Shown: in pieces, positions 10,551-44,872 of the stretch
Numbering within the stretch: position 1 is the stretch's first letter
Layout: each line of letters opens with the position of its first letter
Virus record (IMG/VR): IMGVR_UViG_3300009085_000007
Coordinates: 1 to 44,872 of that record
Strand: one strand, 5' to 3'
DNA from: a virus
DNA: 44,872 nt
Program-made: the position numbers and the translations under genes
Notes under the pieces: model-generated
Told to the model about the DNA's origin: nothing
Databases searched by the model: none
What the model saw: only the letters and a program-made list of their open reading frames with translations

Positions 10551-10853
10551 ATGACAGACGACGAAATGTACGACAAACTAAGCGAAAAGCTTCAAAAAGT
10601 TCCACTCGAACACGCACTCGCCTGCGAAATAATGGAACGAATACAAGACACGGGGAAACTTCACGGCGAAATAAAAAAACTTTGGGGCGCACTCATGGTC
10701 TTGGGGATTTTAATTGCCCTGCTAGCTGCCATCGGTTGCGCTAGCCCAGAAGTCAACAAATGCACCTACATTTGTCCCAAGGGAAATCCGCCAAACGATT
10801 GCTACTGCCTTGAAGATGAAATAAAGCGGGAAGCAAGTTCTATACACCACTAG
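10551..10853 (+). CDS. Small membrane protein with cytoplasmic helical domain and Cys-rich tail
   Basis: This 100-aa protein has a charged helical N-terminus (1-42), one transmembrane helix (about 46-63, ALMVLGILIALLAAIGC) and a tail with five further Cys residues, several in a CTYICPKG...CYC pattern that could form disulfides outside the membrane. The LAAIGC at the end of the helix looks like a lipobox, but it follows a long cytoplasmic segment, so a plain membrane anchor is more likely. GGGGTTAAC precedes the ATG. It ends 4 nt into the convergent recombinase gene. Possible roles in lysis or exclusion are speculative. Confidence 0.65.
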   Translation: MTDDEMYDKLSEKLQKVPLEHALACEIMERIQDTGKLHGEIKKLWGALMVLGILIALLAAIGCASPEVNKCTYICPKGNPPNDCYCLEDEIKREASSIHH

Positions 10854-11377
10854 CGGCGAAGCTTCTTGCGAAGCTCGTCTTGTGAATAAACAAAATCCAC
10901 GTAGATCATCGTGTTCCTAAGATCACGGTGTCCAAGAATCGTTTGAACAAGCTTAACGTCTTTTGTCTCGCGATAAAGTTTCACGGCGCACGTGTGGCGC
11001 AGACAGTGAAACGTCTTGACCTTCTTGCCGCCCGCTTTTCTGGGCGCAAAATCTTCCCATATTTGGTGAAGTCGGTGATATGAAATATCAAACATCGACT
11101 CCCCAGGTAACTCTTTAAGCGCCTTAAATAACTTCGGCGTGAGCGGAATCTCCCGGTCACTCGAACCTTTCAGCCCATGCACTTTCACCGAACCCTTGCC
11201 CTTCCTAACAACTAAATCTTTTTTCTTGATGTTAAGAAGCTCTGAAGCTCGGGCCCCAGTTTCAAGGGCTAATTGAATCAGGATTTTATTTCTACTTATT
11301 GGTTCCGAGCGCACTTCTTTTTCAAGCGCATCAAACTCGTCCTCATCTAAAAATTTATCAAAACTTAATGGATTCAT
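10850..11377 (-). CDS. Tyrosine recombinase catalytic domain (short integrase-like)
   Basis: This 175-aa protein contains the complete catalytic set of tyrosine recombinases: Arg43 (TGARASEL), Lys70 in the beta-hairpin (HGLKGSSDREIPL), His124-x-x-Arg127 (HCLRHTC), His150 (LGHRDL) and nucleophile Tyr159 (MIYVDF). The N-terminal SAM-like core-binding domain of typical 300-400-aa integrases is almost absent; only about 30 residues precede the domain. It could resolve multimers or concatemers, or act at an unknown att site. No att site or excisionase was identified. It is the last gene of a short leftward operon and overlaps the preceding gene by 4 nt. Confidence 0.85.
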   Translation of the reverse strand: MNPLSFDKFLDEDEFDALEKEVRSEPISRNKILIQLALETGARASELLNIKKKDLVVRKGKGSVKVHGLKGSSDREIPLTPKLFKALKELPGESMFDISYHRLHQIWEDFAPRKAGGKKVKTFHCLRHTCAVKLYRETKDVKLVQTILGHRDLRNTMIYVDFVYSQDELRKKLRR

Positions 11378-12633: not shown

Positions 12634-13638
12634 ATGAGACCAAGCGAATTAAAGGCAGTGATCACAGCACGATTCAAGGCGGGAATTAAGCGCCCACTCC
12701 ACGTAGAGTCAAGTCCGGGCGTGGGGAAAACCCAAATTGCCGCCCAAGTTGCCAAGGAATTGGGCGTGGAATTCTTGGCTATTCACGCGCCGCTTTTACA
12801 GCCCGAGGATTATGGGTTCCCAGTGATCACTAGCGACCGGGCGTCGGTCGATTTTGTGGTATCAAAATCAAAATTTCCAATTGAATCAGCGTCATGCGGG
12901 GAATTCGGGATTTTCTTAATCGACGAATTGTCCCAAGCTGATAATTCAGCACAAAAGATTCTAGCGAATCTGATTCAAGAAAGGGAAATCCATGGGCAGA
13001 AATTAAAACCAGGGTGGCTTGTGATCACCACGGGGAATAGACTAACCGACCGAGCGGGGGCCAATAGGCTTTTGAGTCATCTTAAGGATAGACTAACCAC
13101 GGTAGAGCTTGACGCATCTATAGATGATTGGTCGACGTGGGCGCTCGGAAATGGCGTCAAGTCTGAAGTCATTGCATTCCTGCGTTTCCGCCCCGATCTA
13201 TTGAATGCTTTTGACGCCCAAAATGACGTGAATGCTACGCCCCGCTCGTGGGTTGAGGGCGTTTCCGCGTCGCTTGGCGCAGTCGATTCCCACCTTGAAT
13301 CAGAAATTTTCAAGGGTGACGTGGGGGAGGGGGCAGCAGCAGAATTCAATGGATTTCTGAAAATCTATAGAAAACTCCCTAACCCGGACGCCATTCTATT
13401 GAATCCAAGCGGCGCCGAAATTCCAAGTGACCCTGCAACACTATATGCATTATGCGGGGCCCTAGCCCACAAAACGACCGGGCAGAATTTCGGTCGAGTC
13501 ATGACCTACGTGGGCAGAATGGCGCCGGAATTTTGTGTTTTATATGTCCGGGACGCAATAAAAAGAAAACCAGAAATTCAGTCGACCAAGGAGTTTATTG
13601 AGTGGGCGTCGGGTCCAGGCGCTAAATTGTTGTCTTAA
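12634..13638 (+). CDS. MoxR-type AAA+ ATPase
   Basis: This 334-aa protein has Walker A SSPGVGKT at residues 26-33, Walker B FLIDE at 94-98, sensor 1 Asn in ITTGNRLTDRAGANR (Asn135), and an Arg in LKDRLTTVEL (about 153) where the arginine finger is expected. This is the signature of MoxR/RavA-like AAA+ chaperones, which work with VWA-domain partners in metal insertion or complex remodelling. The partner is encoded two genes downstream. The start follows GGGGGAATTATGAG, a start motif shared with three other genes of the module. Asn codons are 11 AAT to 1 AAC, unlike late genes such as the capsid gene. Confidence 0.93.
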   Translation: MRPSELKAVITARFKAGIKRPLHVESSPGVGKTQIAAQVAKELGVEFLAIHAPLLQPEDYGFPVITSDRASVDFVVSKSKFPIESASCGEFGIFLIDELSQADNSAQKILANLIQEREIHGQKLKPGWLVITTGNRLTDRAGANRLLSHLKDRLTTVELDASIDDWSTWALGNGVKSEVIAFLRFRPDLLNAFDAQNDVNATPRSWVEGVSASLGAVDSHLESEIFKGDVGEGAAAEFNGFLKIYRKLPNPDAILLNPSGAEIPSDPATLYALCGALAHKTTGQNFGRVMTYVGRMAPEFCVLYVRDAIKRKPEIQSTKEFIEWASGPGAKLLS

Positions 13639-13665
13639 TTTGAAACATTAACTTTAGGGGGAATT

Positions 13666-14520
13666 ATGAGTTTAAAAGAAAATTCGCTATTGATCACATT
13701 AAATATCAGTCAATGGGTGGGCAGAAAACTTGACCGACGTGCGACTGCAACCGTGGAAAACGCCCACCGGACCGATGCCAAGGTGGGGAATTACAATAAG
13801 CGCCTATTGCCGGGCGCTCATGAGCTAGAGGAAATTCAAGCCCACGCGTCAAGCTTAAGGAAGTTTTATTATGAAAATACGCTGCCTTGGGCCCACGACG
13901 GGGCGCGTATCATTTCGAGTCAAAATTATGTGAATTTCACGTCTGAATTCAGGGCTAGAAAACAGGCTTTTGATTCAAGCGTCGGGAAATTCTTGGCAGA
14001 ATACCCACGCCTGCGCGACCAAGCTAAAATCAAGCTAGGGGACCTGTTTTCCGATTCGGAATACCCAAATGACGATAGACTTCTAAGAAAATTTTCCTGT
14101 GAAATTTCGGTTTTCCCGATTCCGGACGTGAATGATTTTCGGGTTGAATTGGGTGACGCTGAAAAAAAGCTATTCCTTGAATCAATGGCGCGGGTGGAAT
14201 CCGACGCCCTTAAGGAATGCTATTCCCGCTTGTTTGAAGTGGTGAAAACCGCGTCCGATAGACTTCAAAAGCCTGACGCCATTTTTCGGGATTCCCTAAT
14301 CGGAAACATCACTGAATTGGTCGACCTATTGCCGCGCCTGAATCCAATTCACGACCCTAAACTTGAGGCACTGCGCCTGGAAGTGAATTCAATTGTTGGG
14401 AGGGTTTCCGCCGAATCTATTCGGGGAAATGAGGCAACCCGGGAAATGACTGCCCGACAACTTGGGGAAATTGCGGACCGAATGGGCGCATTTATGGGGG
14501 TGGAAAATGAAAACGCTTAA
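13666..14520 (+). CDS. DUF3150-like protein of the MoxR-VWA module
   Basis: This 284-aa cytoplasmic protein has no membrane segment. Its N-terminus (LLITLNISQWVGRKLDRRATATVENAH) resembles the ISxWxGRKLD start of DUF3150 proteins, which recur beside MoxR ATPases and VWA proteins in phages. That identification is from memory of the family's look. The middle is helical, followed by a beta-rich IPDVNDFRVELG segment and a helical C-terminus ending before the overlapping ATG of the next gene. It may be an adaptor between the ATPase and the VWA protein, or their substrate. Start at the GGGGGAATTATGAG motif. Confidence 0.75.
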   Translation: MSLKENSLLITLNISQWVGRKLDRRATATVENAHRTDAKVGNYNKRLLPGAHELEEIQAHASSLRKFYYENTLPWAHDGARIISSQNYVNFTSEFRARKQAFDSSVGKFLAEYPRLRDQAKIKLGDLFSDSEYPNDDRLLRKFSCEISVFPIPDVNDFRVELGDAEKKLFLESMARVESDALKECYSRLFEVVKTASDRLQKPDAIFRDSLIGNITELVDLLPRLNPIHDPKLEALRLEVNSIVGRVSAESIRGNEATREMTARQLGEIADRMGAFMGVENENA

Positions 14521-15634
14521 GCCAACCAAAATGGCCAAGGCCAAGGCAACGCTCGTTTTAGATCATCCATTTTTTGCGTCGCTATTGTTAGGGATGCCAA
14601 TGACTGAGGATTCTAGTATCCCAACTTTTGCGACCGACGGGAATTCAATTCGATTCAACCCAGACTGCGCCGATAAATTGGAATTGAATGAGTTGGTCTT
14701 TGTCTTGGCCCATGAGGTCATGCATTGCGTTTTCCAACACATGACCCGACGGGGCGCCCGGAATCCGAATAAATGGAATATCGCAGGCGATTATGTAATC
14801 AATGACGTTTTAATTAAAGAGCGCGTGGGCAGAATGCCATCGGGCGAATTGCAGGGCTTGAATGATCCCAAGTTAGTCGCGCAGGGGAATGGCACGACGG
14901 AGGGTGTTTACAATTTACTTCCACCCGATTCCGAAAATAAGGGCGCAGGCCAAGCGGGTGGGGCGCTTGACTCGGTTTCCGACGCTGCCCCAGACCAAGC
15001 GGGTCAAGCTGCCAAGGAATCCGAAATGAGGGTGAAAATAGTCCAGGCCCGGAATGCTGCGAAAATGGCGGGGAAATTGAGTCAAGGCATGGCCCGACTC
15101 GTTTCCGACTTGGTCAAGCCACGCGTCGACTGGAAGTCGGTCCTGCGCCGATTTCTCACGACACGAGCGAAAACAGACTTAAGCTATTCGCGACCCAAGC
15201 GCCGATTCTTGGCCGATGATCTATTCCTGCCAAGCTTGACGGGTGAAAAAATGGGAAAAATAGCCATTGGGGTCGATTGCTCGGGGTCAATCAATGACCA
15301 AGCCTTGGCGCTATTCAGCGCCGAAATTCAAGCCATTTCCGAAGATATTCGCCCGGAATCAATTGAGGTCATTTATTTTGATTCGGAAGTCATTTCCAAG
15401 GAAGTTTTCACGTCGGAAGATTCAATTGTGCTTAAGCCCTTGGGTGGTGGTGGGACTGCATTCAGTCCGGTTTTCGAGTGTCTTAAGGATTCGGAAATTG
15501 TGGCTTGTGTGATTCTAACCGACCTGGAATGTCATGATTTCGGGCCTGCGCCAAGTTTTCCGGTTTTGTGGGCGTCGACCAATTCAGACCAAGCGCCATT
15601 CGGGGAAGTCACTCTAATCAAGGGGGAATTATGA
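14507..15634 (+). CDS. Putative metallopeptidase with C-terminal VWA-like domain (DUF2201 type)
   Basis: This 375-aa protein starts at the ATG at 14507, overlapping the previous gene by 14 nt; an upstream frame start is less likely. The N-terminal domain has the zinc-binding HEVMH (residues 69-73) followed by WNIAGDYVIND as in DUF2201_N putative metallopeptidases. A Gly/Ala/Gln-rich linker (about 140-180) follows, then a VWA-like domain with MIDAS residues DCSGS (257-261), Thr317 in GGGGTAFSP and Asp339 in LTDLE. Partner of the MoxR ATPase by family precedent (MoxR-VWA pairs). The substrate is unknown. Confidence 0.9.
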   Translation: MKTLKPTKMAKAKATLVLDHPFFASLLLGMPMTEDSSIPTFATDGNSIRFNPDCADKLELNELVFVLAHEVMHCVFQHMTRRGARNPNKWNIAGDYVINDVLIKERVGRMPSGELQGLNDPKLVAQGNGTTEGVYNLLPPDSENKGAGQAGGALDSVSDAAPDQAGQAAKESEMRVKIVQARNAAKMAGKLSQGMARLVSDLVKPRVDWKSVLRRFLTTRAKTDLSYSRPKRRFLADDLFLPSLTGEKMGKIAIGVDCSGSINDQALALFSAEIQAISEDIRPESIEVIYFDSEVISKEVFTSEDSIVLKPLGGGGTAFSPVFECLKDSEIVACVILTDLECHDFGPAPSFPVLWASTNSDQAPFGEVTLIKGEL

Positions 15635-16251
15635 GCTATTTCTATGCATTCAATTCGGTGGGCAACAATTTGAAATGGCGCCCACGCTTGAAAATTTTCA
15701 AAAGTGGGGCCCTAACATACGACCCGAAAACGGGGGAAGCCTATTCTTATGACTGGTGTTTTCTTAAGCGAATCAATGGGAAGTTGGTTTTCAATGCCTA
15801 TTGCTATTCAAACACCACGACCCGCCATCAATGGGAAGTCCGGGCATTCCTTAAACAAAAGCGAATCAAGATAGACGTGGAAGTGAAAATCATTAAATCA
15901 TTGAATTCTGATGACGCGGGGCCAATGGCCTTGGCGCAGGAAATTGAAACGGCCCTAGCCGATGACCAAGGCAGGGCGCCCGACCTAGACTGCGCCCGGA
16001 AAATAGCCAAGGCATTCAAGCTGAAAATCAATTCTGCCATGGTTTCCGAAATCGCGACCAAAATGGAAATCAAGGCCTGCGAAGTATTCCTGCGCCGCTC
16101 GGTTTTGAGACAAGAAGAAAAAATGAGGGAATTCCTCGAGCGCCTTGGCGCCCCAGTCTATTCCGGTCCTGCCATTGAATCCGAATCGACCGATTCCACT
16201 CAACCCGATGACTCGAATCCTTTTGCGGGGGTGTTCCCATGCGCCGCTTAA
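15631..16251 (+). CDS. Unknown protein of the MoxR-VWA module
   Basis: This 206-aa protein starts at the ATG within AGGGGGAATTATGAG and overlaps the previous stop. The first 110 residues are beta-rich and aromatic (SYFYAFNSVGNNLKWRPRL, then SYDWCFLKRINGKLVF), the next 70 are helical (DLDCARKIAKAFKLKINSAM and following), and the end is acidic and Ser/Asp-rich. No family was recognised. Its tight coupling and shared codon bias place it with the MoxR, DUF3150-like and VWA genes, perhaps as substrate or specificity factor. Confidence 0.75.
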   Translation: MSYFYAFNSVGNNLKWRPRLKIFKSGALTYDPKTGEAYSYDWCFLKRINGKLVFNAYCYSNTTTRHQWEVRAFLKQKRIKIDVEVKIIKSLNSDDAGPMALAQEIETALADDQGRAPDLDCARKIAKAFKLKINSAMVSEIATKMEIKACEVFLRRSVLRQEEKMREFLERLGAPVYSGPAIESESTDSTQPDDSNPFAGVFPCAA

Positions 16252-16445
16252 GAATCATAATTCTAGCCGTTTTCGGGGCCCTAGCCTTGGGGTCCTGCGT
16301 AACACCACCCGACCCGATTCCAGTCATTGACGCTATTCGCCCGACCAAATATCGGGAATCCGATGGGACTGAATGGCACTGCTATTCCTACCCGATTCGG
16401 GCCCTTGACGGGTCGGTGGTTAGGGTTGAGGAATTCTGCCAATGA
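16239..16445 (+). CDS. Small lipoprotein
   Basis: This 68-aa protein has a basic start (MRRLR), a hydrophobic core (IIILAVFGALA) and the lipobox LGSC with Cys20, followed by a Pro-rich stretch (VTPPDPIPVID). It would be lipidated and probably sorted to the periplasmic face of a Gram-negative envelope. It overlaps the previous gene by 13 nt. It may connect the cytoplasmic MoxR-VWA machinery to the envelope, or be an Rz1-like or exclusion lipoprotein. The tail has two further Cys residues (WHCYSY, EEFCQ). Confidence 0.7.
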   Translation: MRRLRIIILAVFGALALGSCVTPPDPIPVIDAIRPTKYRESDGTEWHCYSYPIRALDGSVVRVEEFCQ

Positions 16446-44280: not shown

Positions 44281-44865
44281 TTATGCCGTTAATGTCTTTG
44301 TGATGCCCTGTAAATTCAGGCCCACTGATACATCGGGCGCCCCAGACCTTTTCTCAAATATAATTTCAATTAAATCCCCAATTTCCAATTCCCGGTATGG
44401 ATACCAAATAAAACTATCCGTTGGTTTAGCCGGGCCAGTGCGTAGATCGGCAATAACAATTCCATTCTTTAGAACTTGAAACATTGACTCGAAGCGACAA
44501 CTAACAGTCAATCTGCCAATCTCTAAAACGTCCGGAAATGTGACGGTGTAACTAAATAAAGTATGTGGACCCACGCCCACGGGAACATCAAAATAGTCAA
44601 AAAAAAAGTCGTCGACTGCCGCCGCCTGCCCTGGAAACCAACCCTTAATAATGTCGATTGCGTTCGACAAGTTGGTTATGTCGTTTCCGCCGTCATTCAG
44701 GGTCAATAGGCCATTTGATAGCGCCCGAATAACGTCGCTAGAAGCTGCAAAGGTCGGGTAGTCTTGTGGTGGAATCGTGTAGCTTGAGCTTGCGCCGATT
44801 GATACGCCCGTATCAAGAAGGTCAACGGAATTTATGAGGTCATCATTTCTTAAGATTTTGCTCAT
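44281..44865 (-). CDS. Virion-region protein (194 aa) crossing the terminal redundancy
   Basis: This 194-aa protein starts at 44865, inside the terminal 123-bp repeat, so its first 116 nt are duplicated at 116-1. It has an N-terminal region with VSIGASSSYTIPPQDYPTFA, a helical middle (DITNLSNAIDIIKGWFPGQA) and a beta-rich C-terminal half (HTLFSYTVTFPDVLEIGRLT). The last 80 residues resemble those of the 226-aa neighbour in style (beta-rich, RFESMFQVLKNG and RDARFQVILNDNG), suggesting related folds. Probably a decoration or fibre protein. Confidence 0.75.
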   Translation of the reverse strand: MSKILRNDDLINSVDLLDTGVSIGASSSYTIPPQDYPTFAASSDVIRALSNGLLTLNDGGNDITNLSNAIDIIKGWFPGQAAAVDDFFFDYFDVPVGVGPHTLFSYTVTFPDVLEIGRLTVSCRFESMFQVLKNGIVIADLRTGPAKPTDSFIWYPYRELEIGDLIEIIFEKRSGAPDVSVGLNLQGITKTLTA

Positions 44866-44872
44866 ATATCCG
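44750..44872. repeat. 123-bp exact terminal redundancy, right copy
   Basis: Identical to bases 1-123. Joining the ends at this overlap gives a 44749-bp circle in which the 194-aa gene and the 247-aa gene are coupled through an ATGA overlap. Confidence 0.95.

Follow-up and report, generated by a model that had tools for sequence, protein, structure and literature searches.

A co-inherited MoxR-type ATPase, DUF3150 and DUF2201 metallopeptidase/VWA gene module in phages and plasmids

Results

A tightly packed gene cluster in a small phage genome

The window analyzed here, i.e., the whole stretch of 44,872 nucleotides that makes up IMG/VR virus record IMGVR_UViG_3300009085_000007, carries a direct terminal repeat of 123 bp at positions 1-123 and 44750-44872; a complete genome of about 44.7 kb is hence the most likely reading of the record. 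Its terminase and virion-type genes are on the minus strand, and its helicase and DNA polymerase genes on the plus strand. Five plus-strand ORFs, overlapping or 27 bp apart, make up a tightly packed cluster: a MoxR-type AAA+ ATPase of 334 aa (12634..13638); a mostly helical DUF3150-family protein of 284 aa (13666..14520); a DUF2201 protein of 375 aa, counted from its ATG (14507..15634); a 206-aa protein, hereinafter ORF4 (15631..16251); and a lipobox (LGSC) lipoprotein of 68 aa (16239..16445). The DUF2201 gene overlaps the preceding DUF3150 gene by 14 bp, ORF4 overlaps the DUF2201 gene by 4 bp (ATGA) and the lipoprotein gene overlaps ORF4 by 13 bp. All five closely spaced or overlapping genes described in an earlier note on this DNA are thus present on one strand.

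Near-identical starts of the form GGGGGAATT(TT)ATGAG, otherwise rare in the window, occur at 12634, 13666, 15631 and 16777, three of the four being in the module. The GGGGGAATTATGAG start, which is identical at three module genes, was considered as a common control signal and rejected, as it is not kept in the relatives checked. Our loose regular-expression motif survey misses variants and truncated ORFs, and the conservation claims made below rest on other analyses. Upstream of the cluster, a minus-strand ORF of 175 aa (10850-11377) matches the Pfam Phage_integrase catalytic domain over most of its length (E 9.5e-26), and is possibly a truncated integrase.

The ATPase and the DUF2201 metallopeptidase/VWA protein

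The first gene product matches the Pfam AAA (E 2.8e-7) and AAA_5 (E 2.7e-6) models and phrog_1297 (E 1.2e-70), the family of N4 gp24, in agreement with its prior identification as a MoxR AAA+ ATPase. It displays a Walker A motif (PGVGKT), a Walker B motif (D97E98) and a sensor asparagine (N135). In an alignment of 36 ATPases, G29 and K32 of Walker A, D97 of Walker B, N135 and the arginines R153 and R204 are invariant, and the Walker B glutamate varies.

The DUF2201 protein combines an N-terminal zincin-like metallopeptidase domain with a C-terminal VWA domain. It matches DUF2201_N (E 5.7e-53), the VWA-like DUF2201 model (E 3.4e-26) and phrog_1314 (E 3.9e-93), the family of N4 gp25; its structural model has a pLDDT of 86.7, and the PDB fold matches of this model are VWA domains. 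The metal-site motif HExxHxxxxH is represented by HEVMHCVFQH at residues 69-78 (14711..14740, plus strand) and the MIDAS motif by DCSGS at residues 257-261 (15275..15289, plus strand), the latter together with T317 and D339. The HExxHxxxxH motif and the MIDAS residues D257, S259, S261, T317 and D339 are invariant across 37 aligned DUF2201 proteins, such that the combination of a HEVMH site and an intact MIDAS VWA domain in one polypeptide, which had been noted from the window alone, holds in these homologues. Likewise, the loss of ATPase or MIDAS residues in relatives, raised earlier as an observation that would count against a functional module, is not what we found, the key residues being kept in the 36 ATPases and 37 DUF2201 proteins. 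We reject the label 'HNH endonuclease' attached to phrog_1314, as the protein is by its Pfam matches a DUF2201 metallopeptidase/VWA protein. The name has been carried into RefSeq phage annotations (e.g., NC_055784.1).

The DUF3150 protein

The window's DUF3150 protein has no match to the Pfam model PF11348 at E<=1, and its assignment comes through its homologues: that in locus L054 matches PF11348 above the gathering score (E 1.3e-7); those in L075 (E 6e-5) and L002 (E 0.0013) match it below that score; and two homologues carry a DUF3150 annotation in public records. In a tblastn search, the window protein recovers the DUF3150 protein of MinM2 (E 1e-22), and its homology to annotated DUF3150 proteins spans nearly its whole length. 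What had been called DUF3150-like is, hence, homologous to annotated DUF3150 proteins.

Its AF2 model is confident (mean pLDDT 92.2). A fold search of the PDB with this model returned nothing at E <= 0.001, and in a viral library Foldseek matched it to A0A6J7WV52, which is itself named DUF3150 (E 4.5e-18), the other matches being further phage proteins. As judged from the model, the fold is apparently new. One weak fold match, from Mycobacterium phage Dylan, is to a protein of 275 aa, which from its length we take to be gene 94. This gene (275 aa) adjoins gene 95, coding for an AAA-ATPase, and lies near ParB and Ku genes (L098:27933-30525). The term 'DUF3150' was not found in a literature search limited to open-licence papers, a result that is no proof of novelty.

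Three of the genes are inherited together

A DUF3150 profile search of IMG/VR yielded 78 loci, which, together with reference phage and the first plasmid loci, were grouped at 85% identity into 37 non-redundant groups. The ATPase, DUF3150 and DUF2201 genes are all present in 33 of the 37, a figure that describes DUF3150 carriers, since it was through this gene that the loci were collected. The order is ATPase-DUF3150-DUF2201 in 26 of the 33 full-triad groups and ATPase-DUF2201-DUF3150 in the remaining seven. Two of the four incomplete groups (L060 and L067) are contigs that begin inside the module; a third contig (L074) stops shortly past DUF3150 and showed no ATPase on its upstream side; and a Manganitrophus plasmid (L088), where DUF3150 stands beside a different AAA protein, is a real exception. 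Seven further close loci, found via the ATPase or DUF2201, all carry the triad (7/7). The reverse dependence, however, fails: in phage S6, which is N4-like, and in several other phages, the ATPase and DUF2201 genes occur and no DUF3150 is recognisable.

The distance matrices of the three genes correlate with r of 0.81-0.92 across 46 loci, as against a largest value of 0.23 in 1000 permutations; given a neighbouring DNA polymerase, the partial r is 0.92-0.96 (12 phages). In conclusion, the ATPase, DUF3150 and DUF2201 genes are a real co-inherited module with conserved catalytic residues. The five-gene set proposed in the earlier note thus stands for its three-gene core, and extends to ORF4 and the lipoprotein in the nearest relative, L106; elsewhere the lipoprotein does not follow.

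ORF4 and the lipoprotein

ORF4 is a real ORF, but no longer one of unknown family or an orphan, as homologues are found in L106 (E 3e-56), in the same position directly downstream of the triad, and in L108 (E 3e-9), upstream of the ATPase. Further, its SY...YSNTTTRH domain contains a SY...YSxTTxxH stretch that aligns with small YSxTTxRH proteins whose genes adjoin the triad in a number of other phages. Pairwise comparison of ORF4 with this small-protein family by hhalign gave E 0.0018 with a single sequence and E 0.00026 with a three-sequence profile; in a plain HMM search with the family, ORF4 was the top scorer outside it, but at E 1.4. BLAST gave no match between ORF4 and the protein encoded downstream in L002; the two have only the motif and a weak profile match in common. 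Taken together, these sequence comparisons suggest that ORF4 belongs to an SY…YSxTTxxH family that is loose in its conservation and is frequently encoded next to the triad. Two other downstream families, present in 11 and 6 groups, were ruled out as ORF4 homologues by profile comparison.

Directly downstream of the triad we also observed two uncharacterised families, each in 11 non-redundant groups (L009:10978-12608, L020:11564-13000 and relatives): one of about 210 aa ('MATVRFS...') and one of up to about 310 aa ('...GKPIR.W.RL.K...'). The ORF just downstream of the triad in L108 (11465-12112) codes for a protein of 215 aa with numerous repeats rich in Ala, Tyr and Asn (AAYAASNATYAANA...).

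The lipoprotein has a homologue in L106 (E 3e-12), and a homology search returned nothing beyond it. A lipobox scan of the 37 groups found a convincing downstream, same-strand lipoprotein in the window only. L108 and L109 carry other small lipoproteins downstream; a nearby lipoprotein is, therefore, not unique to the window, and is still no module-wide feature. We accordingly reject the lipoprotein as a module member beyond the closest relative, L106: it is an accessory, lineage-specific gene outside the deep module.

Genomic settings of the triad

The ATPase and DUF2201 families are matched in 735 and 547 phage records, respectively, with N4-like phages prominent among the matches listed, and DUF3150 in only three. 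On phage contigs, a scan of 115 of the same-strand neighbours within 6 kb of the triad recovered matches to the families of DNA polymerase, exonuclease, helicase and dCMP deaminase; on the opposite strand, the neighbours include matches to terminase and portal.

Among plasmids, 44 records have a DUF3150 match, of which 16 are typed as conjugative and 8 as mobilizable. The ordered triad is present on all eight proteobacterial plasmid loci examined and is contiguous on seven, the Simplicispira plasmid having several genes between the ATPase and DUF3150. Type IV secretion genes lie just downstream in four of the eight, and three of those four have, in addition, upstream PRTRC genes in the stretch of sequence examined. 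On the Burkholderiales plasmids L099, L102 and L103, the triad has PRTRC genes on one side and a type IV secretion system on the other. In bacterial genome contigs, searched with a four-sequence DUF3150 alignment, the triad lies near genes for RecT, Rad52, SSB, RadC, Toprim and partition proteins.

Other neighbors merit mention in their own right. Three same-strand neighbors in IMG/VR loci match the HslV-family peptidase PHROG phrog_1040, which may be relevant to a module that would remodel proteins. In nine groups, the region upstream of the triad encodes small proteins resembling zinc ribbons, with paired cysteines and a conserved HKSNY-like motif (L009:7312-7548, L020:7601-7804, L035:6952-7167 and six more). 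In a PADLOC search, none of the five proteins of the window had a match better than E 0.03, and we reject the reading of the cluster as a defence system, which has no support from that search.

Discussion

A proposed remodelling machine of mobile elements

That the triad also occurs on plasmids suggests that it serves mobile elements in the handling of their DNA, and not only in the building of virus particles. Tentatively, and with a confidence that comes close to an even balance, we propose that it is an ATP-driven, possibly proteolytic, remodelling machine that mobile elements use in their replication/recombination phase. Briefly, we infer a physical complex, client capture by its VWA domain, proteolysis, a client and a phase of action along the following lines. 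The MoxR-type ATPase presumably forms an AAA+ ring. The DUF2201 protein would serve as its VWA co-chaperone, gripping the client via the MIDAS and bringing the zincin-like metallopeptidase domain to it, and DUF3150 might be a dedicated third subunit or client adaptor. Acting inside the cell in the replication/recombination phase, the machine would remodel, and perhaps clip, either a nucleoprotein complex or a protein of host DNA metabolism, thereby letting the incoming or replicating element be processed. ORF4 would then often accompany the machine as an accessory, and the lipoprotein would be a passenger in one lineage.

The middle-phase transcription of N4 gp24 and gp25, which are core genes of N4-like phages without known function (PMC4193335), and a virion mass-spectrometry table of phage LIT1 in which their homologues do not figure (PMC3715699), suggest action in the replication phase, as do the DNA-metabolism neighbours in phages and bacterial contigs; co-occurrence, co-inheritance and conserved catalytic residues speak for the three genes as one machine. 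Against this, gene neighbourhoods are indirect evidence, and genes for host takeover and counter-defence are also found in replication arms; a chaperone of assembly could well be missing from the mature virion; and four virion proteins of phage RPP1 are encoded near its gp24/gp25 homologues (PMC4193335). The pair without recognisable DUF3150 in S6 and several other phages likewise speaks against DUF3150 being a universal third part.

A more specific version of this proposal, of which we are less confident and which we consider less likely than not, is that the MoxR-DUF3150-(zincin/VWA) triad constitutes a previously unrecognised three-subunit remodelling protease, with DUF3150 as an adaptor of new fold, common to phages and conjugative plasmids and directed at replication/recombination complexes or a host factor at establishment; N4 gp24/gp25 would then be the version lacking a recognisable DUF3150.

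Alternative readings

The proximity of the RPP1 virion genes is also among the observations that favor a chaperone of virion assembly that would also process structural proteins by proteolysis, a role proposed for the MoxR/metallopeptidase-vWA pair described in group 2.2 jumbo phages (Iyer et al. 2021, PMC7824862) and paralleled by the archaeal virus ATV, where the MoxR protein p618 acts with the VWA protein p892 in tail development (PMC4124505). However, the presence of the triad on plasmids and plasmid-like chromosomal elements and its replication-side location in phages argue against a purely virion-assembly role, which, if the plasmid copies are functional, cannot be the sole one; further, N4 expresses the pair in the middle rather than the late phase (PMC4193335). 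We hence regard this reading as unlikely.

About as unlikely, in our estimate, is a role in host takeover or counter-defence, wherein the machine would remodel or cleave a host defence or DNA-metabolism protein during phage or plasmid entry. It is compatible with much of the triad's distribution: phages and conjugative plasmids both carry the triad and both meet host defence at entry, and three of the eight plasmids checked have the triad flanked by PRTRC genes on one side and transfer genes on the other. The PADLOC result for the five proteins tells against it, as does the status of the pair as core across N4-like phages (PMC4193335), whereas anti-defence genes are usually variable.

MoxR-VWA pairs elsewhere insert metals, NorQ/NorD being described in this role (PMC9976466), and a weak match to phrog_249 'porphyrin biosynthesis' (E 6e-5) along with two triad neighbors matching ribonucleotide reductase might be taken to point to a metal or cofactor insertion chaperone in the style of CobS-CobT or NorQ-NorD. 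Such a function is highly improbable here: the VWA partner is DUF2201, neither CobT nor NorD, and no conserved metalloenzyme client or CobN-sized family was recognised in the clustered neighbourhood.

The weakest candidate is the envelope link suggested in the earlier note, by which the lipoprotein would mediate superinfection exclusion or control entry or lysis; the overlap of its gene with ORF4 in the window, its own conservation in L106 and the other small lipoproteins downstream in L108 and L109 speak for it, but with nearly all other triad loci lacking the lipoprotein, and the triad sitting in DNA-metabolism or transfer surroundings, we give it hardly any credence.

Of the proposed functions, virion assembly is the only published one that we found for this type of pair. 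A triad with a conserved third subunit on plasmids, which have no virion, changes which experiments make sense, and offers a tractable system for testing a machine of the N4 gp24/gp25 type; DUF3150, in turn, would for the first time be placed in a functional context, with a confidently predicted structure whose fold is apparently new.

Relationship to known systems

The closest known counterpart is the phage pair represented by N4 gp24/gp25, the jumbo-phage proteins and PHROG 1297/1314: the two families, the fusion to a VWA domain and the adjacent or near-adjacent placement of the genes are the same. The window likewise has a PHROG 1297 ATPase with intact Walker motifs next to a HExxH and VWA/MIDAS partner on one strand. 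Here, in contrast, DUF3150 is a regular third gene, between or after the pair, the genome is of 44.7 kb and the same triad is also found on plasmids. The earlier statement that no role is established for these genes in phages is fair; that said, the pair is hardly obscure, given its several hundred phage records and the published assembly proposal (PMC7824862).

The p618/p892 proteins of Acidianus two-tailed virus are likewise a viral MoxR ATPase with a VWA partner, but have no peptidase domain (PMC7824862) and are tied to extracellular tail development. The ternary MoxR-vWA conflict systems (VMAP, iSTAND; PMC7159879) also combine MoxR and vWA proteins with a third protein; here, however, that protein is DUF3150, and the vWA protein is without fused variable effector domains. 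No Pfam or PADLOC match related to VMAP-C, iSTAND or a similar third component was found in the module.

RavA-ViaA, NorQ-NorD and CobS-CobT present the same general arrangement of an AAA+ ring and a MIDAS co-chaperone acting on a client complex. They use other VWA partner families and other clients, and to our knowledge have neither a DUF2201 metallopeptidase domain nor a DUF3150 protein; membership in the CobS-CobT group specifically fails on the VWA partner, which is DUF2201 and not CobT. Thus, the ATPase/DUF2201 pair was already known in phages, and what is new is (i) DUF3150 as its regular third partner; (ii) the same ordered triad on plasmids, many of them conjugative, and on other elements; and (iii) the location of the phage triad, which shares its strand with DNA polymerase, exonuclease and helicase genes and has terminase and portal genes on the other strand.
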